From Clavelina lepadiformis (taxonomy: Eukaryota > Chordata > Ascidiacea > Aplousobranchia > Clavelinidae), in the NCBI RefSeq assembly GCF_947623445.1, contig NC_135247.1:2420501-2484500 (forward strand): DNA of 64,000 bases, read 5' to 3'. The number at the start of each line of letters is the position of its first letter. Positions within the stretch are counted from its first letter, which is position 1. Of this stretch, positions 1 through 38,232 are shown one piece after another. The notes below the pieces were generated by a model that saw only the letters and a program-made list of their open reading frames with translations, was not told the origin of the DNA and searched no databases. The position numbers and the translations under genes were made by a program.

Positions 1-3000
1 TTTTAACTTCCGAGTGGTGGCGATAATGAGCTTACCACTTAAAATTTTGTCAGGCAAAAAGTGACAAAATCGTTTTGTTTTTTATGTCAGGTGAACCATT
101 GTATGCCGTTTTTATTTAACAAAAGATATGTTCTTGAACGAACACTACGTTTAATTATTCTGCAGTGGAATTTGCTTTTTGAAATAATGCGAGATTGCGC
201 AAGAACGAAGTATATTTAGTACGTGACGCAAAACGGGCAAATTTCACGTTGAACATTCAATGTCAATTTTTGTAAATTTTCTTAATTTTAGGCAATTTTC
301 TTCAAGTGTGTTTGAACTCTTTGACCGAAATAACAATCCTTCCCTAAATTCATCTCAACGTAGTCGTAATTCTGTATTTTTTTTTGGAATAAAATTTAAT
401 TGCGTACTTTTGCTTAAAACGGTTTCAAAACATTAGCAGGGGCTTGTAGCAGACGTACTGTAGTTAAGTTTCATCAACAGTTTAATGTCGCAATAAAAAT
501 AAAGTTTGCAGGGTCTCGAATAAGTCGTTTAAAAAATCTCAAAGCAGACACTTCGGTGACACGCTTTAAATTTTAATAGCTGCAAACCGCTTCCTAGCAA
601 ATGTCGTAGAATAACCATATTAGGAGTTACCACACACTGTGGCTGCCGAAGCGTGCCATGCCTTTCAAATTACCTTTGTCCAATAATAAAGCAAAATAAT
701 AATCTGAAATTACAATGAACGAGGCGACGATAATTTCTCAACTGGCACGTTCGCTGCTGACATAAATCAAAGAATTTCGGCCAAGTTCAAAGTTAATTCA
801 AAGCCTTGGGTATTCGTTAAGACACGCTTGTGTGATGTTTATAAGAAAATTATTGTCAATTTCCGCGGACGATTTGGGTCGTTTCGGCAATTTTTTAAGG
901 TGTTCTATTTCTTGACGTAACGACAATTTCCCAAACAGGACTTTCTCCACTATCTTATCTCTTGTTATCAATAACATCACATAGCATTGAGACTTTTGCT
1001 TCGTCACAATCATATCTTCGTTAACGTATTGTTACGTCAAAAATAAATAAACAAAAAGGCGTTTTAGCAAAATATGCGTTCATTAAGCCCTAATTGGAAG
1101 GATTACATCATAACTAAGTGATTGGCCGTCTCTGTGCTCTAAAACGCCATTTTATTGTGATGTCACACACCCTGATAGTGACGAAACTATCTCGATGCCT
1201 AAGCGTGGTATATATCAAAGGAATGAAAATATATTGAAATTGACAACCAAGATAAAAAGAAGCGGACAAGTCCGTTTTATATAAAAGAGTCGTGTGACGC
1301 TTATGAAAACGTATTTGGTAGAAAAAGTAAAGCCCGCTTGCTTTGCTTTAGCCTTTTCGCAATTATTTGCGGCTTAAAAGAAAAAAATCACTCGCAAATA
1401 TAAGCAGGTTGATCGGTTAAACATGACATTGCCACAGACGTGTATGAGTTTCAGTTTAACCCAATTACCGAAGGCATTACGCGGGATAGATGAAAAACGC
1501 CGGCCCGGTTAAGATTGGCTTCAAGTAACTATACCTAATTGGCCGGAAACGTATAGTACAGGCTTAGTTGCTTTGCATAAGGTATAGGCCAGTTTGAGGC
1601 GATATTCAACTTAAAATCGATAGAAATTGAGTGCAGGGTAAAGTATTCAGCAAACACTCTCATCAAGTCAAGGTGAAACTGAATCATTTTCCGACGTCGC
1701 ATTTGAAGGCGCGTTAAATGCCCGGCTCAGAAATTTAGTTAGATTTTAGCCCGAGATAGGCAGATGTTTCAGGGCGATGGATGAAATATGGTGAACATCT
1801 TAAAAGGCATAATTTCGCGGTCTAATTAGCGTATAACAAGCAATTACGACGTAGGGTTTATAACTTCGCGCGGATCTATGTATATATAGGGCCAAAATAT
1901 GAGAAAAGTAGAATAAGACGTAGCCAAAGCTTTCGATACATGCTTGTCTGTTTCGTTTAAAAGCCGAGCTTTTGAAAATAACCAGTTCATCTTCGCACTT
2001 CACAGGCGAGATTTTTAACAAGAAAATTCCACTGTTGCCACCTTTATATGAGGCAATAACAGCCAACAACTGTTGCAAGAAAACGTGCATTTCGAAACGA
2101 CCCCGAAGACCAAAAGTCTTAAAGCACGCTGAGCGAAGAGCGTAAAGATTCAAGTTCTCAACTTTTATCCGGCACACGACTAAGGAAGTTTTTCAGTTGC
2201 AAATTAGCTTCGTCCATAGCGCATTAGCAAGCGTTTGAGGGATTTTGTTAATTGGATTATTGAAGACCAGTCTCAACCAATGATCTACTCGGTAAAGGCC
2301 ACGTGCGCTGCTCGAGCGCTTTTTTCATTATTGGTTTTTTTCATCGTGACGTCATATAACATCGAAGCCCGTTCCGGAGCACCTCGTTGGTGGTAAGCAT
2401 TTTACGTCATAATTACAATATACTTATTACGTATTAATTTACTGTTTATGCCACTATACTCTTAAATGTGCTTTACATTGCTGTTGTTATAATTGTAAAC
2501 GTTGTCCATTACGTAACCACGTTTTTTTAGTATTTTACAAGTATCGTCTTTAAATCCAGGATATTTGCAAAATCATGTATTTTTATTACCGTTAAAAAAG
2601 AAAAATCTGTGGGTAAATTTGACCTTCTATTGGCAACCTACGACTGTACGGAGTTGCAGCTGTCTTTACAGCAAGAGGTGTTGACCGAAGTTTGTTTAAT
2701 TAAATCTCGAACCCGCTGTAAAAATAGAATTTCAACAAAAAGCGATTTGATTCCTACGTCACGTGTCACGTTTATGCACACCTACGTGATATTTCGTTGA
2801 AATTACATGAAAAGCTTTGTCATGAAACGCGCGATTGTTTTTTTATGTTTCTTTTCATGTTAATCTACACAAGAACGTCTCGTTTTACGTGATTGTGTCA
2901 CAATAGACAAATTATGATGTCATAATAAAGATTGTTTACGTAATCCTATTTCACCTGGCTATAGCGTATGTTGCTTTAGTTTATTTTTATTACTTGACAA

Positions 3001-4984: not shown

Positions 4985-7900
4985 GTCCCTGGCCATGGTA
5001 CCGCCAGATGGCGTGCTGAATGTCAAGTCAATAACTTGTAACAGTATTCCCGGTTTAGTCTCAAAGCAACACAGGTATTGTTCACACAATATTGAGCTAA
5101 TGCCAAGCATTGCCCGTGGAATTAAGCTCGGAATTGACCAGTGCAAGTATCAGCTAAAAAACCGCAGGTTTGTTTATTTTTTTCATGTTGTTTTTCATGT
5201 TATTTATTGTTTTAGTAACACACGACAGTTTCCGCTTCTTTCGGCAACGTTTATTTTGTAAAAGCGGAAGTGAAGTATAAACGAGAATGAAACCTTGCTC
5301 AAGATGTGATTGGAATTAGGTTGATATTCTATTTTAAAAATCGTCAAAAAGATTTCAAACCGTGAAAAAGCTTAAAATAAGCTCGCCTATATTTTTGAAG
5401 ATGAAAATCTTTTTGTAAAGTTTCTTCGTAATGACACTAACAAAATATCAGCAGAGTCTTAAACATCACAGTCCATGAAGAAAAATTAAAGATTGTGAAG
5501 TAATTTCACCAAAAAAAACTTAAAGCAATGAAGTGTTGGCTACAGCATAAGATTTGTGAACGTCGATAGCCAAATATTACAGGCGTAATACTAAATTCTC
5601 TACACAAGCTTTCGCAAGTATTCCTTAATAGATCTGATGAAGCGCACTGATGCTTGCAATAGCTTGTGTAGAGAAATTCAGAGGTAAAACTAACCCTGGA
5701 GCTTCATCCAATTTTCTGCCTTGTTATTGTACTAAGCTTATATATTGGTTGTACTGAGTTAACACGGTTCAGCCAGTATCAACTTTGTAGCCGCAATGCT
5801 ATAACAGACTCCAATGCTAAATGAAATGCTAAAATGAAGGCCACGCAGTAGTTGTTGACCAAGTTGTTTGGAAGGTGAAACGTAGGAGGAATAAGATTTG
5901 CTCGTTTTGCAAATGTGGTTTCAAATTGTAATTGTAAAATATGGAGCATATTATAAATTTTTTTAAATTTTACAATTTTGGTCAAGTTTCAACTAATGCA
6001 AAAAAAACGCTTTTTTGAGGATGTATTTGCTGTAAAATATCTGTCTTGGTCAAATTTGTTTCTTTTTTTGTTTACTTTTCGGCATTATTCAAGATTGTCT
6101 TTTTTAAAAAAGGTGGAATTGCAGCACTCTACCACTACGACGTTCTCGGCCAAACAGAAAGAAAGGTGTGTTTGGTCCTGTACTCGAAACAGGTGAGATG
6201 CTTATCTAAACTACGCGTGAAATCTGTGACTACCGATAGAGTCTTTTCCTTAATAATAAACCCGACCTACAGCAAATCAACAAGAAAACAAACCTTGAAA
6301 GAAATTGAAAACCCTTGACAAAATAATAAATTTTCAAATGTGTTTTTTCTTATCAAAGCATCGCCGGAAGCGGCCTTCGTTCATTCGATCGCAGCAGCCG
6401 GGGTCGCCCACGCTGTTGCTCGCGCATGCGCAGAAGGTTCGTTGACGTCTTGCGGATGCGACAAAAGATCAAGAGGTTATTTATAAATATCGCTGTTTTC
6501 AGTTTTTTTTTTTCGACTTAAAAAAGTAAGCAACAACATTTTCTGGAAAATACTCATATATAGGCGCCTACCGAAAAAACTTAGGATTACGTCAAAAAAC
6601 TTCAATATCGTTCTGTAGAATTGAAACGTGTGGCTTTTTCTGTTCAAAGCTTTGCTTAAAACATTTCTTCACCACAGTTGAAAAAGGAAATTGGCGATGG
6701 AGAGGTTGCAATGAAGATGTGGAGTTCGGGATTCAAGTCTCCCGCGAATTCGCGGACGCCCGAGACCAAGGCAACGACGGACGTGCAATTATGAATCGCC
6801 ATAACAACAAAGCAGGAAGGATGGTACGTCATAATATACCTTTATTGGCTCATAAAAACGCTATGATTTTAATCTAAATAGCTGTTTGCACCTGCGTATT
6901 TCGGATGCTGATTTAACCCACACCAATGCGACCGTAAATATCACTTTAACATAAGTGCAATCTCGCTAGCTCACCTGCCCAATTATGTTTTTTTCGATGA
7001 CTAAGATATTCGGGGGTGGTGATATAAAAGGAAATTTAATACCGCGTGAATAGCGGAACGGCTAGACCGCTGATTGAACATAAACATGATTTGACCAAGC
7101 GAGTGACTTTGTCCATCTATAACGTCACATCATGCAGGCTAATATCCATCAAATTTTTATCGTCTACTTCCGCTATTGATCAGAGAAACGAGAATATGCA
7201 AAAAGCGTGTCCTATAAAATGACGCAATTTAACCAAATTAAAGTACCGCATTTCCTTGAAAAACAATAAAATGGCGAAATATAAATACGGTTTTTAGCTG
7301 CGTGTGCGTTTACCACCACCACCACCTTTGCCAAACAGCTCGCGCTGATTAAGTTTCCTCAAGCCCTTAATACATTACGCGATTTATATCGTGGAGCTTT
7401 TCTATAACGTTACTGTACATACCTTTCTGAGTTTTAAATATTTTCACAACAAGCGTTGTAGCAAGAATCTAATCAATTTATGCTCATCGTAGGTTTTGCG
7501 CGACAAAATGCAGCTTAAATGCAAGTGCCATGGCTTATCTGGAAGCTGTGAGCTGCGAACATGTTGGTGGGCTCTTCCAGATTTCAACGAAGTTGGAAAG
7601 AAGTTGAAGAGGATGTATCTCGACGCGTCTGAGATGAAGGTGAAGCACCATCAAGAGGCAAGAGGTATCGTCGCTTCCCTGGTTCCAAAGTGAGCTTTAC
7701 TTCTGTTTGTTAGTGCCGATGAATCACTCGGCAGTGCAGACTCTGTACTATTTGTTATAAAGTCTTTTAAATGATTCTCGTTATTGTAGCGAATGATTTT
7801 GATTGAAAACATTTTATTCCAAATTTTTTGTCAAAGATTTCAGGAATTTCCACCGCCGCAAGAAACAGATCTCGTTTTCTTTAACAAATCTCTTAACTTC

Positions 7901-8119
7901 TGTAATAAAAATCCACGACTTGGAATCGAAGGCACGAAGGGGAGGTTGTGCAACGCGACATCTAGCGGTGTGGACGGTTGCGACTTATTATGCTGTGGTC
8001 GCGGCTATAACACAGCACAGAAAACTCGAATAGAAAGTTGCAGATGCGTTTTCGAATGGTGCTGCCACGTCGAGTGCGAACAGTGCGTCACTCCTTACGA
8101 AGAACACACGTGCAAATGA
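4985..8119 (+). CDS. WNT3: WNT3-type secreted ligand (5' exon not found)
   Basis: Secreted lipid-modified glycoprotein that binds Frizzled/LRP receptors. Exons read: 4985-5167, 6113-6192, 6359-6475, 6678-6823, 7493-7689, 7837-8119, all with consistent phases. The first begins with the SLA of the vertebrate WNT3 'WSLA' and runs on to [15 protein letters not shown]. Then come RRWNCS, FGPVL, the acylation-site motif [10 protein letters not shown] with CWW, and a Cys-rich C terminus ([23 protein letters not shown]) ending HTCK, as in WNT3. The read part is about 335 aa, against about 355 aa for the human protein, so only the signal-peptide exon is missing. The WNT3 assignment rests on SIPGLV.KQ near the N terminus, DLV before the final domain, and [13 protein letters not shown]. 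An N-glycosylation sequon follows RRW. The acceptor at 7836 was chosen over 7843 because only it keeps the frame. The next gene, GOSR2, lies 3 kb downstream on the same strand. Confidence 0.93.
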
Positions 8120-11088
8120 TGTCGAAGATGTCGTCATCTTCTTACACCCTGCATCGAGAATCATGCACCATAATCCGGTCCCGGAAAAGAGGATTGGAGA
8201 TGCGAATGAACTTGCCAGTTGATTGTATATTTTTTATAATGCGCGGGCGCTTATTTATATAATTTAAACGTTTTGTACAACTTTTTTCTATGTGTGCTGT
8301 TTGAGTGTTCCTTATTGAAAAAGGACTGTTGATAAAAACAGCAAAGGCTTATTCTTGTTGCAGATGACATTTCAATTTTTTATTAATAAGCATTATGTCT
8401 AATGGTTTAATTGTCAAAAATACGTTGGTAAAGCGAAAAATAGGAGTCTGTGCTTGTATAAACCAAGTTTCTCTCAAGAAATTCTCCACAACTTGACAAA
8501 GGAGATTCCCTTTCTTGATAAAACTTTCACTGAGTTTAAAACCAGTATTTGATTGATCAAAAAACGTCTTGAAATTTGACCTTCGTACAGTAAAATACAA
8601 AATAAGTAAAAAGTTTCTCTCTTGGCTGATTTTATATAATAATACTCCATAGAAAATAATCAAAATGTGAATGGATCGGAATTTGCTCGACGGTGTATAG
8701 CGTCTCGCTTGCCAGTGCTACCACAAACGCAAAGTCTATACGCAGCTTATTAGTGTATATACTCGATTATTGATAATAACTATTGAGGTGTGAGTCGGCT
8801 ACAACTTATTGGATGTCATCAAGCGGCAGGCGTGCCCAACCGCTACAACGCTAACCGCGGTTCGAGCAACAAGGTAGCATCACCTGGTTGAAGCACTTTT
8901 TAAAACAAATAAGCACTTTTAAGTTTAATGAATTTATGGCAGCATCGCCACGGTCACTTGTATTTTAGCGCCACTTTGCCGTGTTCCTCAACGTGAGACT
9001 ACCGCACTGCTGTAGGCCTACATGGGCATCTACCGTAAGTTGTGTCATTCACGTTCATCTGGAAATGAAAACACAGGCAGCAAAGTTGAGAATCGAACTC
9101 GGTACTTTTGAAACCCGAAAGATCAATAAAACGGAGACGCCATTTCGAACAAGCGCAAGCAACCAATAAAAATGTTGCTATTTTATTGTAATTATATAAA
9201 TAATTATAAATACCATAAAGTTGCAAACAACGTAACTAGCGTAGGAAACATAATTTTTTAACTTTGTGATACTTAAAGTGGACTTCTACTCTTCCCACGT
9301 CGTATCTAACTATAACTATATAATTATTATGATTTTTGAAAATCTTTACAATAAGATGTCTGTAACGTTTGTCTCCCTGTCCGCTAGAAAGAAGCAGGAC
9401 ATCACTTTTATTTGCTTAAAGCCTTGTTTTTTTTCTGTTTCACAATTCGCATTTCGTGTCTGTTGTTGTTCAGGCAGTGAAGTAAGCAGACGCTCTTTAG
9501 AGAAGTCTCTTCTTCTGATGATTGTCTGTACTTGGGCATATGTTCGTTTGCCAGTAAAATAAAGTTAGTGTCAGTCGTGGATAAGGAACGGTTTAACAAC
9601 TTATTAGAATATTCTTTAATATGCATCTTTCATACCCATTCCGTCTGCCAGGCACTGATGAATTCGCTACACATTGAAATAAAATTCCTGAATTATTATT
9701 ACTAGATTAATTGAACTGCGCTTTCAATTTTCTTTTGAAAAAGTAATCAGCCACATTTTGGCTAATTCACCGCTGTTGTGGACGCTTGAAATTAGTCAGC
9801 GCTTTTGATACGTCCGCTATAGGTACTTAGTTTTTGTCTGACTATTTGTTTCGGGCATTGTGACATAAAAATGCGGCATGACTCAGTGCAAGTTTTCTAA
9901 TCAAATACCTTGTATTTCCGATGAGTTTGTACATATTGTTTTCTTGTTTGTAAGTTAAGTTGTTAACCTTGTAAGTTTTCCTTGTTTTACAATTTCCAAG
10001 GTTTTTGGCCGGAAAATTTATGCTGAGTTATGCTAAGTTCTACGTCACAATACCTTGGAAAAATTTGGCAGCCGGGTAGTGTCAAAATCTGATGTTATAA
10101 ATTTAATTTTGATTGTGCCAGCACCTTGAATACCAGAATATTGTATATATCGGGGGTAGGTAAAAGACGGAATCTGTACGGACTTTCTGACTTGAACCAA
10201 TATGACATATAGCACAGTTAGAATATTGAATGTTAAGCACTGGCATATCGACCATTGAGCCAAATAGAAAAGTAAAGTTGAAAGTTTGGATAACGTCTTC
10301 ATAATAACAGCGTAAACTGTAAAGCTTATACTCAACAGTCAAACAAATACCTATAATAATTTATAAATAAGCTTAAACTTACAACCAACTAGGCCTATAG
10401 CCTTTTTCCTCAGCAGTCAACCGTATTTAGGCCTATAGGCTTCCAATCACAACTCTTATCTTGTCAGAAGGAATTGCAGAGTTCTCAGGAATTAATAGAA
10501 ATTCAGGACGAAGTGTTCAATATCCTGACTCGGCCAACTGCATTAGACTCTTGTATTAAAAAATATGTATGTACGTCAAAAATTTATATATATATGCCAA
10601 AATCCACAGTCCTAAAAATTTTGTTTGGTTTTTTGCTGTAAATCTCCAGCAGAAAGGCCTTAATTTGCAGTTTTGCACACCAACTTTTTCCTTGCTTTTT
10701 CAGTTTATTGTTACATGAAAGTACTTGGATTGGAAATTATGCTTTCGTGTAAAATGTTTATTGTAACATAACCTTTAAATTTTGAAAAGTAAAATATATT
10801 GCATTGACATGTTTGATAGATCATTAAAATATAGTGTTAACCGTTTTGCACAAGCATTGGTTAATTATAACTTAAGTAGAAGCAAAATGTAACAGCCAAG
10901 TTGAACTTGCCATCAAAGTTATCCCATTGCTCATTGGGGGCATCTGGTAGCTTTTTCTGGCATTCAATTTGTAGTGTAAGTCTTTAAGATTATATTGAAA
11001 TTGTTAATTCACTGGTTGTGTTGCATCTAAACTACAGAACTTAGTCTTGATTATTTACCTAAAATTAAATTGAAAAGGTATTAGAAGA
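8120..11088. other. Intergenic DNA between WNT3 and GOSR2
   Basis: Holds the WNT3 3' UTR and the GOSR2 promoter, neither delimited. Two short tRNA-like patches (about 8690-8750 and 9000-9165) suggest SINE remnants. Other ORFs here are short, lie on conflicting strands and match nothing recognised. Confidence 0.5.
9000..9165 (-). repeat. Possible tRNA-derived SINE remnant
   Basis: Read on the minus strand, an A-box-like stretch is followed by a B-box-like GAGTTCGATTCTC near 9085, the spacing expected of a pol III tRNA promoter, then a non-tRNA tail. Acceptor stem and target duplication were not found, so this is tentative. Confidence 0.3.
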
Positions 11089-14000
11089 ATGGAAACGTTG
11101 TATCACCAAACTAATCGGTAAGATTGCTGATTTACGTACATATGTTACTATTATTATTGTTTTTATTACTTTATTTTTACACTGATATTTGCCCGATTCA
11201 AAGCCCATTTCCATCTTTACTATGGCATTATAAATAAAAATGCTCACGTCAAGGTTTGTGTTCTCACATTTGTGCAGTTTTGCCAAATTGATTTACAACC
11301 ACAGTGGAAAGTGTGGCACATTCATGCTGATTTTCTTCATATTTTTGTCTATAGTTACAGACAATTCTGACAAATTTTGTTGTTTGAATGCTAATTTGTA
11401 ATAAGTAAACAGAGATTTGAGTCTTCAGTGCGTGACATCGCAACAAACTTTTTAACTCTGCATGCCTGTAAAGTGCTATACTTTACCGTCTGGGTAATAT
11501 GCATGCGAAATATGAATTTAATGCAAAAAATGATCATACATATCATAATAATTGTTTCAAATATAGAACTATTTCAAATCATGCGAATTTAGTTTTCAAA
11601 AATTCAAAAGGCAATGTTGATCATTATTAATTTTTATTTCTTGTTAATCCTCGACAGAATGATCAGTGATGTCCAAAGAAATCTGGGTCGACTAGAAACT
11701 GCCACTGGACATGAAGCTTTTGGTAATTAGGCCACGACATGCATTTGTTAAATCTTGTCTTTAATCAATGGCTTGAAGTTTGTGAAGTTGAATTATAAAA
11801 TAAATTTGTATAAAATGTCATTTTTGAGCCATTGTAAAGCCCAGTAATGTCCAGCAAAACATGAATCTAGAGTATATTTTCTTAAATCTTAGCCTAACCT
11901 GAAGTTATCATATATACTAAGGATGTGTCGCGAGAACGATTATTTAGGTTCGTGCAAATCCAAATTTCATAAAGGTCAACTTGAATGAACCCCGAATCTA
12001 TTCGTAACAGCACCAAATACCAAAGTTTTATCAAAAAGTTGCCAGATATTGCATGTGACGTGGTGTAATTGCTAAACATTAATGGCCAAATATATTGTCA
12101 GAAAATGATACGTAGCTTAAAAAATCTTCTAGCTTTGAGCTTCAATATTATACTGGTAGGTAGGTATGTTTGTAGTATTTAACCTATTAATTATTCTTTT
12201 TGTCTTTTTTAAAGATAAGTGGTTATTTAACATATTTCGAATCTTTTAAACTTGAATGCCTTCAACTTAAACAACTTGAAATCTGAACAATGTTTTAGAA
12301 AATATTCTGCCTGAGAAGCTAACTTTTACTTCGAACAAACTTAATCATCGAGGAATTGTTTATATTCATCACTTTTAAGTTGCATTTTTGCGTTGAAAAT
12401 GAATTTATGAGTGAAATTATCAGTATTTCCTTTGTTGAACTTCTCAAAATTTTAACAATGCGTCTGCTGTATTTCCATTATTGTTTATATTGGGCAGTTA
12501 GTCTAAGTTCCATTCGCTTAAACTGAAGTATAGGATTTTGATAATTGGCATGGATGTTGTTGGTATTTTGCAAACTGATTAATTCATTTTACGTTGACAC
12601 AAAACACCAATTCATCAGTTCTTTAGTGAGGCACCGGGAAAGTTAAATGCATTGGTTATATATTTTATAGGCCTAAGTGAGTTATTATCTCTGACAAAAA
12701 TCAAATAAAACTATTGAATTTTAAACGCTTCCAGCTATAGAGAATGCCGTTCACAGTCAACTGGAACAAATCAATGGGAACTGTGACCGACTTGAAGTTC
12801 TTGTAAATAAGGAACCACCTTCTCGAAGGCAAAATGCTCGGATGTAAGACACTATTCACATGTTTAGGAGCTTGATTGAAAATTTAGATTTTGCAACAGT
12901 TTATCTTAAACGCATTTGTATTTTACAAATTTTTGATGAAATCCTACGCTTACCTCGCCCTTTAAAAGATAGCAACAACGTTTAAACTCAAAATTGAATG
13001 TGGATAATTTTATGACAACAAAATCGAAATTAACTTGATTATTAAAGGCGGGTCGATCAAGTACGTTACGATGTCCAACACATTCAAAGTGCACTGAGGC
13101 AGTTCCAGCATCGACAGAGTGTTCGTGATCAGCAGAGAAAGGAACGAGATTTGTTGTTGAGGACTTCGTTTAAAACTAATGTAAGTCGAATTCTGTTGTG
13201 TAGTTACAAATATGCTGTTGAGTTCATAGAAATAACGTCAAGAGTAATACAGTAGTGAAATTGTTATTTAGGACGAAGAAAATACAACCATTGAAATTAA
13301 TTCTGATATGAACCACCATACAGGCCTATCAAATGCGCATAAAGGTTTGTGCAGTTATTCGTTAATCTAAAGTGAAAATTGATCTAACAGCATAGCTTGT
13401 ATGTTTGATATTTTTACGTCATTTTTCTGCATACTTCAGGCCTTGATGACATCATCAGTCATGGTTCAAGTGTGTTAGACAATCTTCGTTCTCAACGTGG
13501 CATGCTGAAGGCGAGTACACACACTTTTAAGTACTTTGTGTGTCAACATTACTCGTGTTTGTGTATTTTTTGCCTTTCACTCTACGGCTAAAAAATTGCA
13601 AAGAAATAGCGTGTTAAAAGAGATATATCCACATTCAGCAAAAAATAACTTCTTTTGGTAGTTATACATACCATCCACCGTTTGTACCAATGTAATTGGC
13701 ATCATCTTGCACGCTTTATACCATATATCTATACCAGGTTTTTCTTGTCCATCAATTCTTTACTTGCATTCCTGTTCAGCATATTTTTCCCTTAAATTGG
13801 TATTTTTTGTTGCTTGATATGTAATGTTTAAAACAGATTTTAACACTAAAATGAAAAAACTTCATTGTCACACATTGGTTTTGAAGTAAGATGTAACACT
13901 AAGAAAGTAACAGAGTTTTCCATAAAAAAAAAACAATTTTTCAAAGTCAGTAGGTCTGTCTGTCTGCCAGCAGTTAAAATTAATAGCAATTTATTTTAAA

Positions 14001-14660
14001 ACATTTTTGCTCATGGTAAAAGACGGCCTCAGTCTGATTATGGACGCAGAAGGTTGTTCTCAATTTTACTCTGTTTTTTCTTCTTTTACTACAAGTATGA
14101 AGATACCAAAATCAGCTGCTATTTATTTTCTGCACTTGGATTTTAAAATCAAACCCGGTAAAAATTTAAAAACTCACATTTGTGGAATGATGCAATTGTC
14201 ATATTTTGCTTACAAAATAAATCCTGCAGCAGTAGAGGTAATTCGTAGGTCTGTCGACTCATTTATGTTGGATCTAGATTTATATATTTCACTTAATCTG
14301 CATCATCAGTATATGAAGCATGTGTGCAACTAGAGAAGCTTCTGATTAAGGCAATTTTAGTTATTTGATACATAATTTCCAATTAATGCTGCTTATTCAA
14401 AAATAAAGTTTCTTTATTGAGATAAAATGAAGTGCGTAAATGATCTTTAAGTTTTTCACCTATTCAAACACATACCTAAACGTATGTGTTTCTTCCAGGG
14501 CGTAAAAACGAGAATGCTGAATATTGCCAATACTCTTGGACTCTCTAACACTGTCATGAGGTTAATTGAGAAGAGGACGACCCAAGATAAATTGATACTT
14601 TTCGGAGGAATGTTTGTAACATCTCTCATCATGTTTCTTCTATGGAAATACTACACTTGA
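11089..14660 (+). CDS. GOSR2: Golgi SNAP receptor complex member 2 (membrin), Qb-SNARE
   Basis: Tail-anchored SNARE for ER-to-Golgi and intra-Golgi vesicle fusion. Seven exons: 11089-11117, 11658-11722, 12735-12843, 13048-13180, 13272-13344, 13440-13510, 14499-14660. They total 642 nt, a 213-aa protein against 212 in human. The N terminus METLYHQTN aligns with human MDPLFQQTH. LGRLETA, PPSRRQNAR, YDVQHIQSALRQFQHR, the SNARE segment LGLSNTVMRLIEKR and a single C-terminal membrane helix ending WKYYT all match membrin in order. Phases agree at every junction. The intron after exon 6 starts GCGAGT, a GC-AG intron. A 108-codon ORF inside that intron looks non-coding. The gene is co-oriented with WNT3, and a hAT MITE lies about 100 bp past the stop. 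Confidence 0.95.
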
Positions 14661-21104: not shown

Positions 21105-21843
21105 CACTGTCAAAGTAACCCCATGTTATCTTATAGATTTCTATGGAATACAGAAATTGATAGCGTTTGATAAAAACAACACAATTTTTAAAGTATGGAA
21201 TTGGCAACGACAGGATGCTTATAAGGTATATTCACATTACATAGGATTTTTAAAAATGCAGGTATTTTGCCTATTTACGAAGCTGGCTGTAAAGTACATA
21301 CAAAAGTATTACTCAAGCTGGAATAGAAAAACCAAGATGCTGCTATTGCTGTACTTATACTGATAGCTATTCGATTCGATACACAACTTGTGCTCATTAT
21401 ACAATGGTATTAGTGCTTAATTGTGATGTCCGTAGCCAAGGCGTTCTCCTGTTTAACCCGTCAGTGGTTATGGTGAACGATTCTAAAATCAGAGCAAGAC
21501 CACAATGAATGCACAAAAATAAATTTGATACCTAACCTAGTCGACACACAGTTCAAGTAGTATTTTATGAGTTCAATGGTATTAATGTGACATTTATGTT
21601 ACAATAACTACAATCATTGTATGATTAGCAGATTGATATACAGTATATTAAAATTGCATTATGAAATTCGCAATATCAGCATTTTGTGTATAGTAATTCA
21701 CCATAAAACTGATAATTAATTCGTGGTTCGCTATAAATTTTACCTGTCGTAGTTCCAACCATTTGCAAGTTGGAAACCTCCATGACCTCATCTGTTCAAG
21801 TCAAGGCTTTTAGAAAAATTCATGTGAAGCTCGGGTAGGCGTT

Positions 21844-24800
21844 ATGTATTGGTCAAATCAGCCTCGAGCTTCCACACCTTTACCAGAAGGATGGGAAAGC
21901 AAATATGATCCAAGTAGTCGAAAATGGTATTACATTAATCACACCACCAAGAAAACACAATGGGACGATCCACGGCTAAGCCAACAGGTAATTTTACCAA
22001 GCAACGGCAAATATTTTGTATGTTGTGACGATGACATTAACTTGCAATGCTACAAACATTTGACCTTGTTTCATTTTTTGTTGATTCTTTAGCAGTGGTT
22101 TTCCCCTCAAGCAGTGCTTTAAGTTTCCCATCACTTGACTTTTCCTTTTATATTGTTTGAATTACTTTTTGATTTTTTTCATATCTTTGTTGTTAGCAAA
22201 CATCCTCTGCTACCAAACAGGCTCCTAACAATGTCACAATTGCTGATTCGGACAAAATTGCTCATATCATGTCTGTGTTTGACGTCAACCGAATTATTGT
22301 CAGGTAGTGAAAGTTGTTACAATATGTATAGTCAAGGTCTTATTACATCTTGTTACTAAAATGTTGTGACTAGATTTCTTTGCTGAAAATATTTTAATTT
22401 AGTCATGTGGTTGTTTGTTTGTGTGTAATGTATATTTTTACAGCACGTTTATTTGCTAGCTCTCTTCTCATTGCAAATAAAAACCAAGTTGAAAACGTGA
22501 AAGCAACCTTGCTCGGTATGGGATATAGAAAGGTGAAGCTACAGTAGTAACATTGGCGTCTTGTGGTAAAATTGGCCTAAAGCAATTAATTATGACAGTT
22601 TATTTCATAACAGAAAGTTACCCTAAACAGCAACCATGCTGTATGTAATACAGCTGCAGTCAACAGTCAAAATAGCAAAATAGAACAGAGAACAGAGCAT
22701 GGAGTGAGAAACGTTAATGGTAGGTGACGCTAAACTGGTATGTTATTAAAATAGTAGAATGATTGATTTGGTATTTCACTGACCGGTTCATTAACTTTGT
22801 TTCGCTATTATGAAGCACTGTTGTTTTCATATCTATCAGAAACCTCACGGCCAAACACAAAGTCTCTACCTACTGGCTGGGAATCTAAATATGATTCAAC
22901 AACTGGAAAGTGGTATTATGTTAATCATATCACCAAAGTTACTCAATGGAATGACCCACGTCAAAGTACACAGGTCACTCAGCATGCTGTGAAATATTTT
23001 TAATCACTGCTGTCCGTCTAACCTGGGTTTAATGTTTTGGTCTGCAAGGCCGTTGTTCCGAAACAAGATATTGTTGTTACGCCAAAGAAAGATTATCCTT
23101 CAGTTCCGGAAACAGTTACACAGACAACACGGTATGAAGTTATATGTACTTGTGAATTGTAACACTATGGCAAACTGATTAAATTTATATTTAAGCGGCA
23201 TGTATTTCTAGAGAAAAAGCTGTCAGCTCAAATAACTTTGTAGAGTCAGCAAAAGATTCCCGAAACAGTTTGGGACACAAAGAGGGTAAGAATATTGAGC
23301 TATTGTTGCTGAAAAAACCCTCTATGAATTAATTAATTATCATAGCAGTTTATTCGAAACTTTGGTCTCTGCATGTGTTAAAGTCATATATTTGTGCGGT
23401 TTCCAACTGCAGCGAAGATTTTGTGGTGCACTAATTACATGCTTTCCAGCATTCCTAAAACAATGCCCAGATGTAGCAATGATTGCCAGTAAATCCATTG
23501 GCTTAGTACATACTCCATACTGTGTCAAATATGTTTTAAGTTAAGAAATACATTTCCAGAGAACAATATGAAGAAAATTGATGTACCCGTAAACATTGCG
23601 CCCAGTGATGTGAAAGCTTTCAATCTAGAAGCACGTCAAACAAGCTTGGGAGACTCTAAACCTGTTAGTCATTTGGATAAACAAGACAATTCTCATAATT
23701 CTAGGCGAAACTCAAAACAACAAGCCAATCAGGTTATAATTTAATATTTGATAGTAGTGCATAGCTGAAATCCTTGTATTATGTAAGTTGCAAATTATGC
23801 AGATGTCAATCTGTAGTTGTGTATCTTAGCTTTCGACTTCTGTTTCCACATCAATCTCAGCCAATACAACTGCTACAAAATTTGAATTTCACCAAAATAA
23901 TAACCATGGGTACTAAAGGTTCTTGAGCAAACAATATATTAGTGATTATTATTTATTATAAATTTGACTAGTATTTGCTTAGTTGTTCTTCTAACCTTAC
24001 ATCATTACCACGCCACTGTAAATAACATTTTATATGATTTAATCCTTCATGGATTCAGCCCTTGTCATTTTTCTCTCGATCATTGGGTGGTGTTGAGCAT
24101 GTCTCTGTTTTATTGTGACATAACAAGGTTAACGCTATACTTGCCCCCAACTCACAGTCAGTAGTGACAAATGAAAAATTTGACCTCTTTGTGGTCCAAG
24201 TTTCAGGAGGTCATTAAAATGGTGATAGTTTAAGGGTGATTAACATTTCAGACATCAAGCAGCAGCTCAAACATCTAGCCATGAAACAAAACCAAAAACT
24301 CTTGAAGATAAAAAAGACGAAATGAAAGAGGCTGCTTTAAAATTCAACTTGATGGCAGGTACCTTTTCACCACATGAACTACTCGGAGCTGCTACTTCAA
24401 AGCAAACTGCTTCAACCGACTTTGAAGGTAAGACGTTGAGTTCATTAGATTTTTTGTGGTTTTTAATTTTTTATTTTCTTTCTTCAAAACCACTAGATGG
24501 GGTAGTTGTTTAGTTTGTCGTAGAGTTAAACTGCCTGTACAGTAGCGTACTGAACAGAACCCAAACCACAAATGTCAGGTTTTTGGCAGAAAAAGTGCAA
24601 GGGAACGAACACAGAGATACAACGTATGAGAATGTGGAGTCAGATATGTGTGCAGAGTTAGTGAAAGATTGAGATGTTTTAGATAGCTTTCAGTGAAAGT
24701 TCTGCTGATAATAAATTGAAAGCATGAATTTCAGATAATCTTCATCAAACTTTTCATGTTGATATGCCACATTTGTTGTCTTCCATTAGTTTAACAAGTT

Positions 24801-25399: not shown

Positions 25400-26405
25400 C
25401 TGAACGAATGTTTGCACTTGAACTAAACCATTAACTATACAGCAGTTATTGATGTCAAATGTCTCAGTTTGGTCATTTTTGATTTTGGAATGGATGTTAT
25501 CTGTGAAATTAGCTTAAATAATAATGCTTCAACGAAACGTATTTTAGATTGACTCATTCAAGCAAAACTTTTACAATTATCAAAGTATATTTTAGTCAAA
25601 TTGGTATTTGATCACTTCATTTATCTTATCTGTGATATGATTAATTAAATGTACAATTTATGTCATTGCCAAATTTCACAATACAATCTGTCTTACATTT
25701 GTGCACTGATATTGCAAGTAAACTAACGTTGTGACTCGCAACAAGATGTCAGGACGCACCTAATAATTAATGTGCTTCAGCAAACCGCTAGAGTCTAGAT
25801 AAATGATAACCGCTGTTGCATTTGTACATACAGTATTTCGAAATGTCAGACGACATGGTCGCGTTAGCCAGCAAAGCAAATTTTAAAAAAGATTCAGATT
25901 ATAACCAGATGCAAATTATTCTTATATGGAATTACAACCTATGATACCAGTATTTTATTTCTGTCATTAAGTATTGCAGTGGCCTACGTGCTAAGCTAGA
26001 GATTTGTTCTTAAACTGAGGTTTCCATTGTTGCAGAAACAGAGATAAACGCGTGGAGAAAGCAGGTAGCCTAACCTTAACTATAGGCAAATACGCAAGGT
26101 CAGGCGGTGATACCAAATGCGCTTGACACGTTTTTGTTTCACGATTTATGATGTCTTGAACGTTCCCTACGAAATCAATGCGTTTCCTGAAGACATTTGT
26201 AGCAGTCTGCAAAATGAAACCTTTGGTGCAACGATAGAAATCAGACAGAGACAGATCAAAGCTGTGCTGCTTTCAGAACTGTCTCAAAAAGCTACCAAAA
26301 CAACTTTTTCGATACTTTAATTTATATTTTTAATTTTAAGTGAATAGGAGTTTTTAAGCTGTACGCTCAGAGAGAGGCAGAGATAGAAAGACGAGCGTCG
26401 CTAAC
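25400..26405. other. Intergenic DNA before SLC6 A
   Basis: About 1 kb holding the 3' end of the WW gene and the presumed promoter and 5' UTR of the SLC6 gene. Overlapping ORFs on both strands at 25991-26320 have no recognisable homology and no good exon borders. Confidence 0.45.
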
Positions 26406-29400
26406 ATGGCCAATGTCACGGTTGAACATGAGAACAACAATAAGCGACAGACGTGGAGTAAATCGTCGGATTTTTACATGTCCAGCGTCGGCTTCAGCAT
26501 TGGCCTTGGAAACATCTGGAGGTTCCCTTATATGTGTTTTAAATGGGGAGGAGGTAAGAAATATGCTAACATAGTAACATGTCATGTCATTAAACGTAGC
26601 TTGGCCAATTTAGTTGGTAAGATACTACATTAGGTTGTTAAAAACAGGAAATATATGTTGGGTAGTATTAAAACGTTTTTCCTGAAGATATCAAATAACG
26701 CAAAACACATTAGCTGACGCCATGTTATACTCATATGCTTGTGGACATAAAATCGTATGTACCTATATGATAGAAAGCTTTCTGAAAACAAGGTGAAGGC
26801 CTCATAAACATATCACAATCACAGATACTACAGCTCTTCCAATCTGAAGTTAATGGTTATATCGGTGCTAAATAAAGCTAAAAGAGATTTACCCATCTCT
26901 CGAATTAATATGAACAGAACAAAGATAAATCAAGATAACACAGTAAACCAACAAACGGACTGCATTTGTTCAATTATATATTATACTGTGACTAACTCGA
27001 TAAGTTGCACGTATTTTACGCATCATCCTTTCTATTTTGATCATACAGGAGCATTCCTCATACCTTATCTGTTGTCTGTAATTCTTTTGGCGATACCGCT
27101 TTTGACGTTGGAGGTTTCTCTTGGTCAGTCAGTACGTAAAGGAGTTATAGCTTCATGGGCAGCTATACCTTTGTTTAAGGGTAAGACAGAAACCAAGACA
27201 GGTGTTTAATTTTTTAATCATGAACAAATATCACAATATTTATTTATTCTAGTTAAAGCCACGAAAAAGCCTAAACTTAAATAAATAATCGTTATCAAAT
27301 GCAGGAATTGCTTACGCGAGTGGGGTGACCATGTTCTACGTCAACGTATCGTACCCGGTGATATTGGCTTGGGTTTTCAAATATTTCGTCTCTAGTTTTT
27401 CTTCCAAATTGCCCTGGATGAGTTGTGACAATGAGTGGAACACTGAACACTGCGTCAGCTTATGGGGGCTTGAGAAGGAAAGTATGAATGCTACAAACCA
27501 CAGCAATCTGACGTATTCACAAGTCCATGATGACAACAAACATTTGGTAACAAACAGCTCAAAAGATATTTCAATGTCTTCTGCAGAAGAGTTCTGGAAG
27601 TAAGAATCTTAAAGATTGAAGTATTCTTCAAAACAATATTCATTAATTTGGTATTGCCATAACAGCTTTGGAGTCTTAGGAATATCTGAACGGATGGAGA
27701 AACTAGGATCGATACGCAAGGATCTTGCACTTTATTTGGCTTTAATTTGGATTCTGGGATATTTTACAATATTTAAAGGAATCAAGTTGTCAGCGAAGGT
27801 AACCTATTTTTCCCACTTTCTATTGAATCCGTGTCATCACAGAACTTGTTTAACTTTCTTTTCAGATCTTTTACTTTACAGCAACTGTTCCAATTATTTT
27901 GATGATCATCGTGACCATTAGAGGAGCAACACTAGAGGGCGCGTCTATTGGAATTTACTACTATCTAAACCCGGATATGACACAGCTGAAGAACCCGGAG
28001 GTAAAAATTAAAAAACAAGTCTTGAAAGCGCAGGGGATTGTTAGTGTTAGAATAGACCTAAAGCTTTTCAAAAAGTGCAGTTTTATAAAATTTTCGTAAA
28101 TACCTGATTAGAAATACGTCTGCACGCTATTTACCGTAAATGTCGTAGTAACCATTGATAAATTGATAAAATCATACAAAATCTTTAACTTATAAAGTAT
28201 TGTGCAGGTTTGGATTGCAGCTGCAACTCAAGTTTTTTATTCCTTAAGTATTGGTACAGCTACGCTTATAACTTTGGGCAGCTATAACAAGTATCATCAT
28301 AATTTTGTTAGGTAATTTACAAGAAAGCATATAGATACACTTACTGTAGTTATATATCTATCTATTTTATTATCAACCAAAATTGGAAAAAAAACGCAAT
28401 TTATCATGGTACACTTTTTGCAGAGACGTGACATTGCTGGCATTCTCTAACAGTCTTGCGAGCTTTCTTTGTGGCTTTGCGGTCTTTTCAACTCTTGGTT
28501 CTATGGCGTTTCGCCAGGTACAGGAATATTCACGGCGAATTTAAAATCTTTTTTAATCTCATTTGATCCTTTAATCTTGAACTTTATCTCGATGCTCATT
28601 AGCATTCCGTTTAATTGTATAGTACTTCAACGAAAAATATTTCAAACACCAGAAAATAACCGGCCACCTTTATCACAAAAGTAATTCCGAAGTCAGACAT
28701 AAAATTTACAACTCAAACATCTTCAAACAGCATATAATTTAGTTTTATCAAACAGAACTTAACAATGACGGAGGTGACGCAGTCGGGAAGTGGACTGGTG
28801 TTCATAGCTTATCCACAAGCGTTAACGTTCCTGCCACTACCCCAGTTCTGGAATGTAGTATTTTTTCTGACCTTACTTCTTTTGGGGTTTGATACCCTGG
28901 TAAGTCATCGATAATGACACAAATCACAGATGTGTAGACATATATTAAAACTAATAACAAAAAGAGTTGCAACGCCTTACGTTTAAGGCTTTAATAAATT
29001 ATATTGAGCAATTGTTGTGCAGTGTGTTTTTGTGGAGAGCTTCTGTGCATTTGTCATGGACGTCTGCCCACGTTTAAGGGATTTTCATAAATATTCCAGA
29101 GAAATATTCCTCGTGTTTTGCAATGCTGGATTCTGTTTGCTCGGATTGATCTGCACAACTGAGGCAATATATAATCCTTATATTTCTTCGTCTTTCTGCA
29201 AAAACAAAAATGTTACATTTAAATTAGACCCGGATTTTTATGTATATGTCTATATCTTTGCCTTGTAATTGTTCCCAGGGAGGAGTTTATGTCTTTGAAG
29301 TAATCAACACGTATGGCGTGGCAGGCTGGAGTTTGTTTTTTATTGCTACGTGTGAGTTTGTAGCAGTTGGTTGGGTGTATGGTGCTGACCGTCACTGGGA

Positions 29401-29894
29401 TGAAATCAACCGAATGGTTGGGTCCAGTAGAGTCAGACAGCTGATGGTTCTTATTTGGAAGTATTTTGGACCAATGATATGCTTGGTGAGTAATTTAGCA
29501 AGATATGTTGCTCTTTAAAACAAGGTTTTACACCTGTTTGCAAACTTCTTAATATACCACCAATTTGCAGGCGATTTTCATATATTACGTGACCGCACAC
29601 AGCCCTCTGTCCTATGGAAGTTACGTCTATCCACCGTGGGCACAAGCAATATGTCATGTCGTTGCATCAAGTTCTGCTGCATGCATTCCCCTATACGCAG
29701 TTTATATCATATTTACTAAAAAAACGTCTTGGCCACAGGTATATAGGGTTTACTGCAAAATTTGTTTGCCTATTCTTCGGCCTATTCTGTGGGTTTAGTG
29801 TTTTCTTGCAAATATGTAGATGCGTCGGAGAGAAGAAATTGAAAGAACGGATAAAGACACCATCAATGAAGAAGAATACGTGGAGATGCTTTGA
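26406..29894 (+). CDS. SLC6 Na+/Cl--dependent transporter, copy A
   Basis: Plasma-membrane symporter of the neurotransmitter/amino-acid family; substrate not determinable. Twelve exons: 26406-26553, 27049-27180, 27305-27599, 27666-27798, 27866-28000, 28208-28311, 28424-28517, 28756-28899, 29023-29163, 29279-29485, 29571-29738, 29820-29894. They give 1776 nt, 591 aa, the usual SLC6 length. Helix 1 shows [11 protein letters not shown]. Extracellular loop 2 has the [10 protein letters not shown] disulfide pair and several N-glycosylation sequons. Helix 6 shows AATQVFYS and LGSYNKY. Next come GLVFIAYP before helix 8, then GFDT, where the Na+-site pair is usually DS. Helices 10-12 include [15 protein letters not shown] and YVYPPWAQ. 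The C terminus ends YVEML, a possible PDZ ligand shared with copy C. Intron 9 begins GC (GAG|GCAATA), supported by alignment with copy C. The family resembles GABA/taurine/glycine carriers. Confidence 0.93.
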
Positions 29895-31929
29895 TGTCAG
29901 GAGGAATTCTGTATAAAAAAAACTCATAAAACTGATATAAACGGAAATGTATTTGTATGTATTATTACCCAACACGACAAATATAATTGAAATGCAAGGC
30001 AGGTTGAAATCGGATTGGTCTTTGTAGTCGCGGCTTTTCCATTCCACCCTGTGGATAATCCTGCCTACAAACCTACAGTCCCAGCATAAGGTTAAGTTTT
30101 CGTTGTTTTCGCTTTCTTTTCGAAGAAATTGGAAAATGCTTATTGCCTATTAATTGATGGTTCTAAAAGAAAACGGTTAAAGACCAGTTTGAGGTTAAAT
30201 ATTGCGATTTCCATAAAAAAAAATTACGTCATATTTCAAAAAACTCCGTTAGACCAATCAGATATCAAGATGACCAGCGTTGTTTTTCAGTCTGGGAATT
30301 ACCCTAACAAATGGTGCGTTAAAACTTCCCAGTTGCACGCAAAAGTTAGACTAAAATGTGCTTGAAAACTGATGAAATGTGGGACATTCTTTGCCCCAAA
30401 TTCTAGTTCTGAGTTTAGCGAACCGTTGCAAGTTTTTAAGGTAGCCTATATATGTGATTCGGTTAGGATTACACGAAGTTATAACTCATTTCTTATTAAA
30501 TTCACCTGCAAAATTTCTGGCAACCTTATGCAGGAATTTTCGAATAATTGCATTTTTAATAATTTTACTACACTGCATAATAAAACAAGCACAAAAAAGG
30601 CCCTTTTTAAAGTGTGACGTACCGTTAACATAAAACATAATCCCAACAGATTTAGAAGTTATAAAAATGAGAAAAAAACAGCTGATTTCGAAACTCCTTT
30701 GAATTGAAGTAATTTTAATGCGCTGAGCAACATAGAGAAAAATATTTTACTCTGTATATGGGTTGCAGGACGATCACATTGCTAAACAAACGACTGCAGT
30801 AAAACCAGAAAGAGTCATATAGTAAGATTAGACATAACATTGGCAAGTTTTGGTTATCCTGTGGAAAATTTAATTGGTATCGGCACGCCCTTGGTCAGTT
30901 ATGTGATGCTTTGAAGCCGGTAATGTTAGTGCAATAACAACTGAACCAACATTGGCAACATACACTTCGCATAGCGTTAATTCAGGCTCTTCTGTAACAA
31001 ATGCAACTATGTTGTTGCTATAGATTTATTCTTATAGTGCACTTTATTTAATTTGTGTTTGGGTACTTACTGGAGTTTGGAACTTTTCGTTTTAGTGTTT
31101 ACGCATTTATTTTGTGTCGTCCGTCGATAGATTGGTTTTGTTTATTTTTGGCTCTTTTCCTGTGTACTGAAATGGCTTATTTCGTTTATGATTTCCACGT
31201 TTCGCGCCCTGCCGCATTTGTTGCGTGGACCAATAATGCCTCCGGTCGCTCCCGCTAATTGTATCGAAGTCCTGTCATTTCCTTCTGGAATGTTTTCGAA
31301 AGAATTAGGAGGTTCGGTTGGTGACAGGGCGTTTTCTCTACTCGACGGTTTTATAGTGACATTTTATTTCCTAAATTATAACTAAGTCGACGTCTATTTG
31401 TTGTGCATTTTTTAAATATATGTTCTCACCAACACTCAAATGTGACTCAGATGTGGCAGTTCGCCGTGAAACGGGCGTATCTGGTTTAGATCTGGTTTAG
31501 ACACGTAACACTTCTACAAAATCCAATAATTATCCGGAAAAGTTTCCCAAATATTCTGGGTATAGGTGTAACTGAATGATCGATTTATGCTGCAATAAAT
31601 GAACACGGATCAGCATAACTCGAAATGTTCGAAATACTAAGTTCAGCTGTAGCTGATATACAGCGCTGTTGCAGCGTATGATAAAATTAAGCATTTTTGT
31701 GAGAACATCTTCTCAATATACCATCCACTTCTATTACTATTTCAAACATTTTCTCTTAACTTCTCAGCAAAATTGCTACTGAATGACGAACGACAAACGA
31801 ATGTACCATGGCCGATTTCGGCAACACTGGTAATCCAATTTTTGTTCGGAATTTCGAGACGAATTTTGACCCATAATGTTCTGGCGCGGCAAAAGCATGT
31901 TTTGTAATTGCCCTGTTGGCTTAAATTCT

Positions 31930-32304: not shown

Positions 32305-32650
32305 GCGCTTTTCTAAAAATTAGGTGCTTTCCCCTGGTCACGTGATCAATTGGGGTTTCCCACGGGAGTTTCCCTACTTTCAGCACTTGTCTAGATACTA
32401 GGGAATTTCCCTAATTTTTATATTTTTCTAGATACTAGGGGATTTCCCTAATTTTTGGATTTTTCTAGATACTAGGGGATTTCCCTAATTTTTGGATTTT
32501 TCTAGATACTAGGGGATTTCCCTAATTTTTGGATTTTTCTAGAAATTAGGTGATTTCCCTAATTTTTGGATTTGTCGAGAAATTAGTTGCTTCCCCGTCG
32601 CCACATGATCAGTTAGAATTCCCCGTGGGAATTCCTCTTATTTCATAACC
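32305..32650. repeat. 37-bp minisatellite with flanking larger repeat
   Basis: The 37-bp unit beginning CTAGATACTAGGGGATTTCC recurs at 32391, 32428, 32465, 32502 and 32539, with a diverged sixth at 32576. On both sides lies a related unit of about 80 bp containing TTAG, TGCTTCCCC, CATGATCA or CACGTGATCA, and a CCC..GGGA palindromic stretch, so the short array sits inside a second, longer repeat unit. Confidence 0.9.
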
Positions 32651-35770: not shown

Positions 35771-38232
35771 AATTGAAAAAATGGGATGTGTCACACATCA
35801 TGTGTGAGCTAAATATTAATTTCAGTTAATAACTGTAAACTGCACAGAAAGCCAAACCCAGAGACATCTCACTAAGGCTTTATTTTCTCACCAGTAGTGT
35901 TAAAATAAATTTACTAACCTATGCAATAACTAAGAAAAAACACAAATGTCATATCTAGAAATTGATTTACAAACAGGTTTACAACATTTTACCTGGCTAA
36001 ACAAAAACTTATTTTTCAAAACTATTTTATCAGAATACTCAGTGACCAACTTGTTTTTGGACTTGCCCCTCACTTTAACCAACTTTGGTTAATTGAGTGG
36101 TTAACAAAGTGATCTAATCAGCCTCTTCATATTTGAGTGAACATGAATGAGATTTATAAACATGTCAAATCTAATTCCAAAGTCCAACACTAAACATACT
36201 AGATATTATAGAAATTCCATTTCCCTAACTTATCGAAAAAAAACAATAATATAACTTGTAAACATGTGCAGAAATAACTTAACTTTCAAATCACTGACTA
36301 ATTTGTTTAAAATACGACTTTGTTTTCAATACTGCCATGACTTCACTTTTTGAGCTAACCAAAAATTAAGGTGTTTTTCAAACTTCAAACATATATGTAA
36401 GTTGAAAATTGAAATGATATGTGTGCTTAGAAATTACACGCATTTAAAATTTTCCGGTGTTGATTTTTGTTTTCACGAAATTACCCAGTGACAAAATCAC
36501 AAACATTACATAAGGAAGATCGGTAAATAAGTCAAAACAAAACGGAAAAAATGAACAGGACATGCTTGTGAGAATATATGCAGACATGCGCAAAATGGTT
36601 AAAATAAAGCCCAACAAAAAGAAACATCATCCCAGAGATGGAAATCCTGTTTCTGTATCCAGGCCTTCAGGTGTACAAAACACTTGACAAGAAATGCGAT
36701 ATTCTAAATGGTACAAATATCTCAGCTCAAGGTTTCCATGAACGTAATTTATAAGTTAGGACAAATATAATAATTTATAGTACAGATGTAGAGTAAAATT
36801 GTGTTTGGAATATTGCAAAAAACATGTTACAGAAGCAAAGTTTGTAGGCTGGCACAATACCAATTATGACACTCCATAAATAATTTCTTACAGTGTAGAG
36901 AGAAAAATGTATTAGCTTAAGGCCAGCTCATTAAAACTGCAAAATCTTACCAAGTTACATGTTCACATTTATTATTTTTATTCTTTAGTCCTTGATTAAT
37001 TTCTAATACTGATAAATCCTGATAGAAAAACTTAATATTAATTTGTTAATTTTAAAGGGAGGATTTCTCCACACAATCTCAGTTAGAAAGCATGACATCA
37101 ACGAGAAAATTTTGGTGTAATGGCATGCACTGAAGCCACAATTCTTTGTTTAATTAATATAAATTGGCGTTTAAGCCACCAGTTTTTCCATGTTTATTTA
37201 TAATAAATCGTGAAGATAAAAAAGATTGATAAAAAAAAACGACGAATAAAATAAAAAAAGTCGACTCGTGTGCAGATTAATGCTATCCTGGTATTTTGTA
37301 AAGTTTCCAGCGACTGGACTATTATGCAACAATTTTTGAGATGACAGGTTATATATATGAGGGCATAAAAGCTACGACTTACAACCTAGCCAACAACAAA
37401 AGGTGTTGTTTTTGGGTTAGAAATTCCCCAAGCAACAAGATGAAACAAAATCCATTGTATGCGCAATTAATTTTTATCTTGAGCCAGACACTTAGCATAC
37501 TTTCCCATCTGGAGCGCACCTTACCAAACATGCTTAAATATGTGAACTGAGTTTGATTCCCAGTTGTGCTACAGTTATATTACCTTAACAGAAAGATGAA
37601 CAACGCTTGCTTCTGTTTAGTGATCTTGGTGAACAGTTAAAAAATCGGGCAATATCACAATAGCATAAGAATTAGCAAATTGGATTAATTCGATTATTAA
37701 ATTAGATTAAATTATTAGCGAGTTAGCTCGACTAACTAAGTTAAACATATATTACCGTTTCCAGGGTGGCGTTTATGTATTTGAAATCTTCAACACATAT
37801 GGCATAGCAGGATGGAGTTTGTTCTTCATATCTGCGTTTGAATTTGCAGCAGTTGATGGTTGGTTGTACGGTGCCGATCGTCACTGGGATGAAATCAACC
37901 GAATGGTAGGATCAACCAGGACTCGAACTTTGATCATTTTCATATGGAAATATATAGGACCCATTTTATGCGTGGTGGGTACAATCTCATTTTGCATGTC
38001 CACTTTTTTTATCATATTAAGGCTATAATGTTTAAAACTAATTTCAGTGTTGGAAATTTAAAAAAAATTAACTTTAATTTCTAATATTTTTACACAAAGA
38101 TGGTATCAGTTTATTATATGGCTGCATACATTCCAATGGCTTAGGCTAATTACGTCTATCCACCTTGGGCTCAAGTTCATTGCAAGCTTATTTCAGCAAG
38201 CTCAGCCATGTGGATACCACTCTATGCCGTGC

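Follow-up and report, generated by a model that had tools for sequence, protein, structure and literature searches.

NSF, WNT3 and GOSR2 in human order in the ascidian Clavelina lepadiformis: a probable remnant of ancestral gene order around WNT3

Ancestral gene order is heavily lost in tunicate genomes, and the presence of a WNT3-type gene directly upstream of GOSR2 in a 64,000-nt stretch of the Clavelina lepadiformis genome (C8:2420501-2484500, where C8 is contig NC_135247.1; hereafter the window, to which unprefixed coordinates refer) raises the question of whether part of the neighborhood known from human 17q21 has been kept in this ascidian and, if so, why. A preliminary description of the window had proposed chordate-level microsynteny on the grounds that WNT3, WNT9B and GOSR2 lie together in human 17q21. 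The printed human gene lists agree with this grouping, giving NSF, WNT3, WNT9B, GOSR2, RPRML and CDC27 in this order (PMC4657880; PMC10045734; one list with non-coding entries), and the list of PMC10045734 also includes KPNB1. Here NSF, WNT3 and GOSR2 were found in the order of the human 17q21.3 series NSF-WNT3-WNT9B-GOSR2 across 63,043 bp of C8, an arrangement that is most likely a remnant of the gene order in an ancestor shared by tunicates and vertebrates.

The proximity of NSF was a prediction drawn from the human gene lists before the search was made, whereas GOSR2 was known before being tested. In the genome searched (209 Mb in 95 contigs, C8 being a 19.5-Mb contig representing 9.3% of the total), NSF matches were located outside the window at C8:2372118-2377476 on the plus strand, covering 563 of the 744 residues of human NSF (a sequence entered by hand, without a database record) and ending 45,303 bp upstream of the WNT3 start on the same strand. 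The case for microsynteny is stronger because NSF, the other human neighbor of WNT3, is also nearby. With five neighbors tried (GOSR2, NSF, CDC27, MAPT and KANSL1), the probability that at least two fall within 50 kb of WNT3 by chance was ~2e-6 genome-wide and ~3e-4 when confined to C8, or ~5e-4 in our own arithmetic with seven placements (adding a second NSF-like gene and KPNB1); RPRML, MYL4, ITGB3 and others were not among the 17q21 genes tried. KPNB1, also from the human list, was located on the same contig, at C8:3.45 Mb and 1 Mb away from WNT3. Two lineages far removed from each other share the three genes and their order to a degree not explained by chance, and the proposed microsynteny with human 17q21 can be taken as real for this comparison of one genome with human.

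The assignment of the window WNT gene rests on several lines of evidence. The predicted product carries a Pfam wnt domain (378 bits), 24 cysteines (the same count as WNT3A), the HGLSGSC hairpin and, by eye, a signal peptide, as expected of a secreted WNT. In a PDB search, it scored highest with WNT3A (429.6 and 424.5 bits) and WNT3 (419.3 bits), followed by WNT7A (310 bits), WNT5A (279 bits) and WNT8A (218.5 bits). In three trees containing 13, 14 and 21 other WNTs, the window WNT and WNT3/3A formed one clade with 100/99 support; the references comprised nine hand-entered human sequences and five with PDB letters, WNTA and human WNT2B, 5B, 7B, 8B and 10A being left out. As a single check of the hand-entered references, a tenth such sequence, WNT8A, agreed with its PDB chain at 332/332 residues. 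Approximately unbiased (AU) tests, with constraint groups named only after the trees had been seen, rejected every forced grouping of the window WNT, namely with WNT4 (p-AU 0.00085), WNT6 (0.0047), WNT9A+9B (9e-21), WNT1 (0.015) and WNT2 (0.0002), which rules out a WNT6 or WNT9 identity. Judged from its sequence, the gene is firmly assigned to the WNT3 subfamily, to the exclusion of the other subfamilies compared, as the preliminary description had supposed. Its 55% identity to human WNT3 rules out a vertebrate contaminant. When contigs of prokaryote genomes were scanned with the protein, 20 pattern matches arose, none of them was confirmed, and no relative was found.

The WNT3 and GOSR2 gene models (Table 1) are predictions, with exon limits set by eye from reading frames and splice signals. 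WNT3 was modeled as seven coding exons between 2280 and 8119 that encode 372 amino acids (aa) in a single frame with a hydrophobic N-terminus; all six introns are GT-AG with compatible phases, and a tryptophan codon is split between the end of exon 1 and exon 2. The earlier start at 4985 is that of exon 2, the signal-peptide exon having been overlooked. Intron 2 also holds an inverted repeat at 5593-5678, with 29-nt arms separated by 28 nt.

GOSR2 (membrin) was modeled as seven coding exons between 11089 and 14660 on the plus strand, encoding 211 aa. Five of its introns are GT-AG and the last one (13511-14498) is GC-AG, with GC in place of GT at its start. The product showed a Pfam V-SNARE_C domain (64.5 bits), a C-terminal anchor and 48.8% identity over 213 columns (205 bits) to human GOSR2, whereas GOSR1 reached 50 bits and VTI1A 23 bits (all three sequences hand-entered), making it closest to GOSR2 among these three Qb SNAREs. 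A PDB search with the product returned nothing significant (best E 0.04, unrelated), so that the name depends on the Pfam domain and on the hand-entered sequences from human. GOSR2 was matched at a single place in the genome.

The identity of NSF was examined on two exons, whose best PDB match was NSF (90.7 and 85.4 bits), against 54.3 bits for the best VCP-like match and 35.0 bits for the best NVL chain; the same exons scored 63.9 and 60.9 bits with the NSF orthologue of yeast, Sec18. Together with the coverage of the hand-entered NSF, these values set the gene nearer NSF than the AAA ATPases of VCP type. NSF and GOSR2 both act in SNARE-driven membrane traffic, and it is a curious pairing that two such genes flank WNT3 in human and here.

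GOSR2 follows WNT3 on the same strand after a gap of 2,969 bp (8120-11088), in keeping with the distance of about 3 kb and the shared strand first reported. The gap contains seven AATAAA/ATTAAA words on the plus strand, the first at 9125. When a WNT profile was run on 2,904 six-frame open reading frames (ORFs; at least 15 aa) across the whole window, five WNT3-exon ORFs matched at E <=4e-11 and one more WNT3-exon ORF reached E = 1; no other match was better than E = 2.1, and no WNT9 or second WNT was found between the two genes or elsewhere in the window. A concealed copy is ruled out by this run, which supports the earlier remark that no WNT9 lies in the interval. The orientation of the pair was, however, described as that of vertebrates, and this was not supported: NSF, WNT3 and GOSR2 are all on the plus strand here, whereas human WNT3 is probably on the minus strand (not found in print) and human NSF, WNT9B and GOSR2 are presumably on the plus strand. 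With the human pair divergent and the ascidian pair co-oriented, an inversion would separate the two states.

Beyond the window, at least eight WNT loci were found in the genome (32 exon matches, both numbers being lower bounds), the sequences of the seven non-WNT3 loci consisting of exon pieces put together in profile order (Table 1). The WNT6, WNT9 and WNT10 types lie on C8 together with WNT3, at distances from it of 1.2 Mb, 4.3 Mb and ~16 Mb, respectively, and the other four loci lie off C8; the probability that these three join WNT3 on C8 by chance is ~8e-4. The gene at C7:0.19 Mb has few introns, since its matches fall in only two ORFs. WNT7, WNT11, WNT16 and WNTA types, which occur in other tunicates, were not identified among the eight loci, and none of the eight was assigned to WNT1, WNT4 or WNT8 by tree and best match. 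The absence of WNT4 cannot be claimed because WNT4 gave the best BLAST match to the C1 and C7:0.19 Mb loci, which nevertheless fall outside WNT4 in the tree. According to the text of PMC6060547, WNT1 was lost in phlebobranch ascidians, WNT4 and WNT8 were lost in all ascidians analysed, and WNT3 is absent from all protostomes. The WNT set found here fits a tunicate.

The same text describes ascidian clusters Wnt9-Wnt6-Wnt3 in Ciona robusta and Wnt6-Wnt3 in C. savignyi, and amphioxus clusters Wnt9-Wnt1-Wnt6 and Wnt3-Wnt10, both of which sit on a single scaffold in B. floridae (PMC6060547); GOSR2 and NSF are not mentioned in its main text. As in Ciona, the WNT3, WNT6 and WNT9 types share one chromosome-scale contig in Clavelina; they differ from the Ciona clusters in being megabases apart and in having a WNT10 type on the same contig. 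Of the five subfamilies in the amphioxus clusters, C8 carries four (WNT3, 6, 9 and 10), which are thus still united at chromosome scale. In the open-licence literature, no report was found that links WNT3 to GOSR2 or NSF in a tunicate or in amphioxus, and synteny tables or supplements may hold one unnamed.

Several observations weigh against inheritance of the trio order from a common ancestor. GOSR2 was chosen after the fact and a single species was compared with human; the orientation of WNT3 probably differs from that in human, and its interval with GOSR2 is without the WNT9B that stands there in human. NSF is not adjacent to WNT3, the interval between them containing at least three Pfam-supported genes that are extra with respect to human (ribosomal L7/L12, an ankyrin gene and a C4 zinc-finger nuclear receptor that to the eye resembles NR4A), and a 246-aa ORF, NRF-6-like by eye and without a Pfam match, is probably a fourth; the Pfam scan took in 10 ORFs from three of the five loci inside or touching the interval, and more genes are possible. 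C5 carries another NSF-like gene; five of its six matched pieces are less similar to NSF, and none of the matches listed falls within the second ATPase domain. CDC27 was located on C1, a tubulin-binding-repeat (MAPT-type) gene on C7 and the best Antp-type HOX matches on C9, so that conservation at NSF-WNT3-GOSR2 is confined to a small island and does not extend to an entire arm. The KANSL1 PEHE domain had no match in the genome, a result that is uninformative because the control search was also without a match.

If the order NSF-WNT3-GOSR2 is ancestral, WNT9 would have left the WNT3-GOSR2 interval, and either the tunicate or the vertebrate lineage would have reversed WNT3 with respect to NSF and GOSR2. 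Were the human state, with its probable strands, the older one, a single inversion of the WNT3-WNT9 segment could have produced WNT9-WNT3-GOSR2 with WNT3 and GOSR2 co-oriented, WNT9 moving on afterwards. WNT3 may simply be a usual lipid-modified ligand that is secreted, and GOSR2 a usual SNARE of the Golgi; no functional tie between the proteins would be needed. As to why the three genes stayed together, passive decay of gene order and a genomic regulatory block appear about evenly matched. Passive retention, in which the ancestral order is simply unbroken so far, has close to an even chance of being the cause: the placement of CDC27 and the MAPT-type gene on other contigs and the departure of WNT9 match random decay, although some luck would be needed to keep three neighbors in order while a formerly tighter WNT cluster dispersed.

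That the trio was retained although its sister WNTs dispersed speaks for a regulatory block, in line with the shared regulatory DNA suggested in the preliminary description, a plausible cause whose likelihood we put somewhat short of even. Long-range WNT3 enhancers would be situated inside or past NSF and GOSR2, two housekeeping genes that would be bystanders, and breaks near either gene would be selected against because of these enhancers. PMC10918883 places human risk single-nucleotide polymorphisms within the GOSR2 locus and reports an influence of risk variants at 17q21.32 on the expression of WNT3. There is also a proposed precedent in the wnt7-atxn10 pair, which belongs to a microsyntenic Wnt5-7 block that also includes fbxl14, atxn10, erc and cacna (PMC8851819): there too a developmental WNT was retained beside unrelated housekeeping genes and a WNT regulatory block was proposed, but the WNT subfamilies and neighbors are others and the block was traced over many animals, in contrast to the one genome compared with human here. 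Against a regulatory block stand the short gap on the GOSR2 side, the break-up of the NSF side by at least three other genes and the restriction of the comparison to one species.

Extended further, the regulatory-block reading would make NSF-WNT3-(WNT9)-GOSR2 a chordate-wide unit with WNT3/WNT9 enhancers in and around NSF and GOSR2, so that human GOSR2 association signals would reflect a regulatory layout dating back over 500 million years; this wider version is speculative and on balance doubtful. Heart and bladder risk signals have been reported at WNT3, WNT9B and GOSR2 in human 17q21 (PMC10918883; PMC9646906). The persistence of the trio while sister WNTs spread along the same contig makes this WNT3 locus a tangible candidate for constraint and, if it is a regulatory block, a compact 63-kb model for finding WNT3 control elements that could be compared with human 17q21.

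Chance re-apposition supposes that the linkage is ancestral at chromosome scale only, with order shuffled within the chromosome and WNT3 brought beside GOSR2 by accident. Shuffling within C8 has indeed been heavy, as the scatter of WNT6, WNT9 and WNT10 across 16 Mb and the distance of KPNB1 indicate, but even with GOSR2 held on C8 it would fall within 10 kb of WNT3 with p ~0.001, and the predicted and then located NSF brings the joint probability to the C8-confined values given above, leaving this explanation unlikely. Co-transcription of WNT3 and GOSR2 as a tunicate operon is suggested by their adjacency on one strand and is highly improbable, being in effect ruled out by the 2,969-bp gap with its seven poly(A)-signal words, since intergenic gaps in tunicate operons measure tens of bases.

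Table 1. Predicted coding exons of WNT3 and GOSR2 (window positions) and WNT loci of the genome (contig positions)
Feature	Position	Strand	Basis
WNT3 coding exon 1	2280-2392	+	signal peptide (by eye), ATG frame, GT donor, phase fits exon 2
WNT3 coding exon 2	4985-5167	+	frame and splice signals
WNT3 coding exon 3	6113-6192	+	frame and splice signals
WNT3 coding exon 4	6359-6475	+	frame and splice signals
WNT3 coding exon 5	6678-6823	+	frame and splice signals
WNT3 coding exon 6	7493-7689	+	frame and splice signals
WNT3 coding exon 7	7837-8119	+	frame and splice signals
GOSR2 coding exon 1	11089-11117	+	frame and splice signals
GOSR2 coding exon 2	11658-11722	+	frame and splice signals
GOSR2 coding exon 3	12741-12843	+	frame and splice signals
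GOSR2 coding exon 4	13048-13180	+	frame and splice signals
GOSR2 coding exon 5	13272-13344	+	frame and splice signals
GOSR2 coding exon 6	13440-13510	+	frame and splice signals
GOSR2 coding exon 7	14499-14660	+	frame and splice signals
WNT3	C8:2.43 Mb	+	tree, best match
WNT6 type	C8:3.68 Mb		tree support 91/79
WNT9 type	C8:6.74 Mb		tree support 100/100
WNT10 type	C8:18.50 Mb		tree support 97/92
WNT5	C5		tree support 99/97
WNT2	C7:20.09 Mb		best match WNT2, 54%; tree group 89/80 including the C7:0.19 Mb gene
Long-branched WNT, no firm subfamily	C1:11.88 Mb		best BLAST match hand-entered WNT4, 41%
Long-branched WNT, no firm subfamily	C7:0.19 Mb		best BLAST match hand-entered WNT4, 41%

The remainder of the window contains further genes and repeats. 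SLC6-type (neurotransmitter symporter) exons at 26358-29916, 37711-38028 and 42991-45775 form an apparent tandem family with one copy inverted, the Pfam SNF domain being confirmed at 26361-26630 and the other exons recognized by eye. WW-domain exons at 21814-22092 (Pfam) and ~22767-23003 (by eye) probably belong to one gene, and a fucosyltransferase-type (GT10) exon was found at 55973-56653 (Pfam, 124.7 bits). A retroelement integrase occupies 48393-49541 on the minus strand, with Pfam H2C2 and rve domains in 48981-49541 and the remainder assigned by eye, and a 37-bp unit is repeated in tandem 5.8 times at 32364-32580. Two tRNA-Ser (CGA) genes lie 1.8 kb apart on the minus strand (58380-58461 and 60220-60296), and a protocadherin-like gene with cadherin repeats, recognized by eye, lies just beyond the window end (within C8:2484501-2494500).

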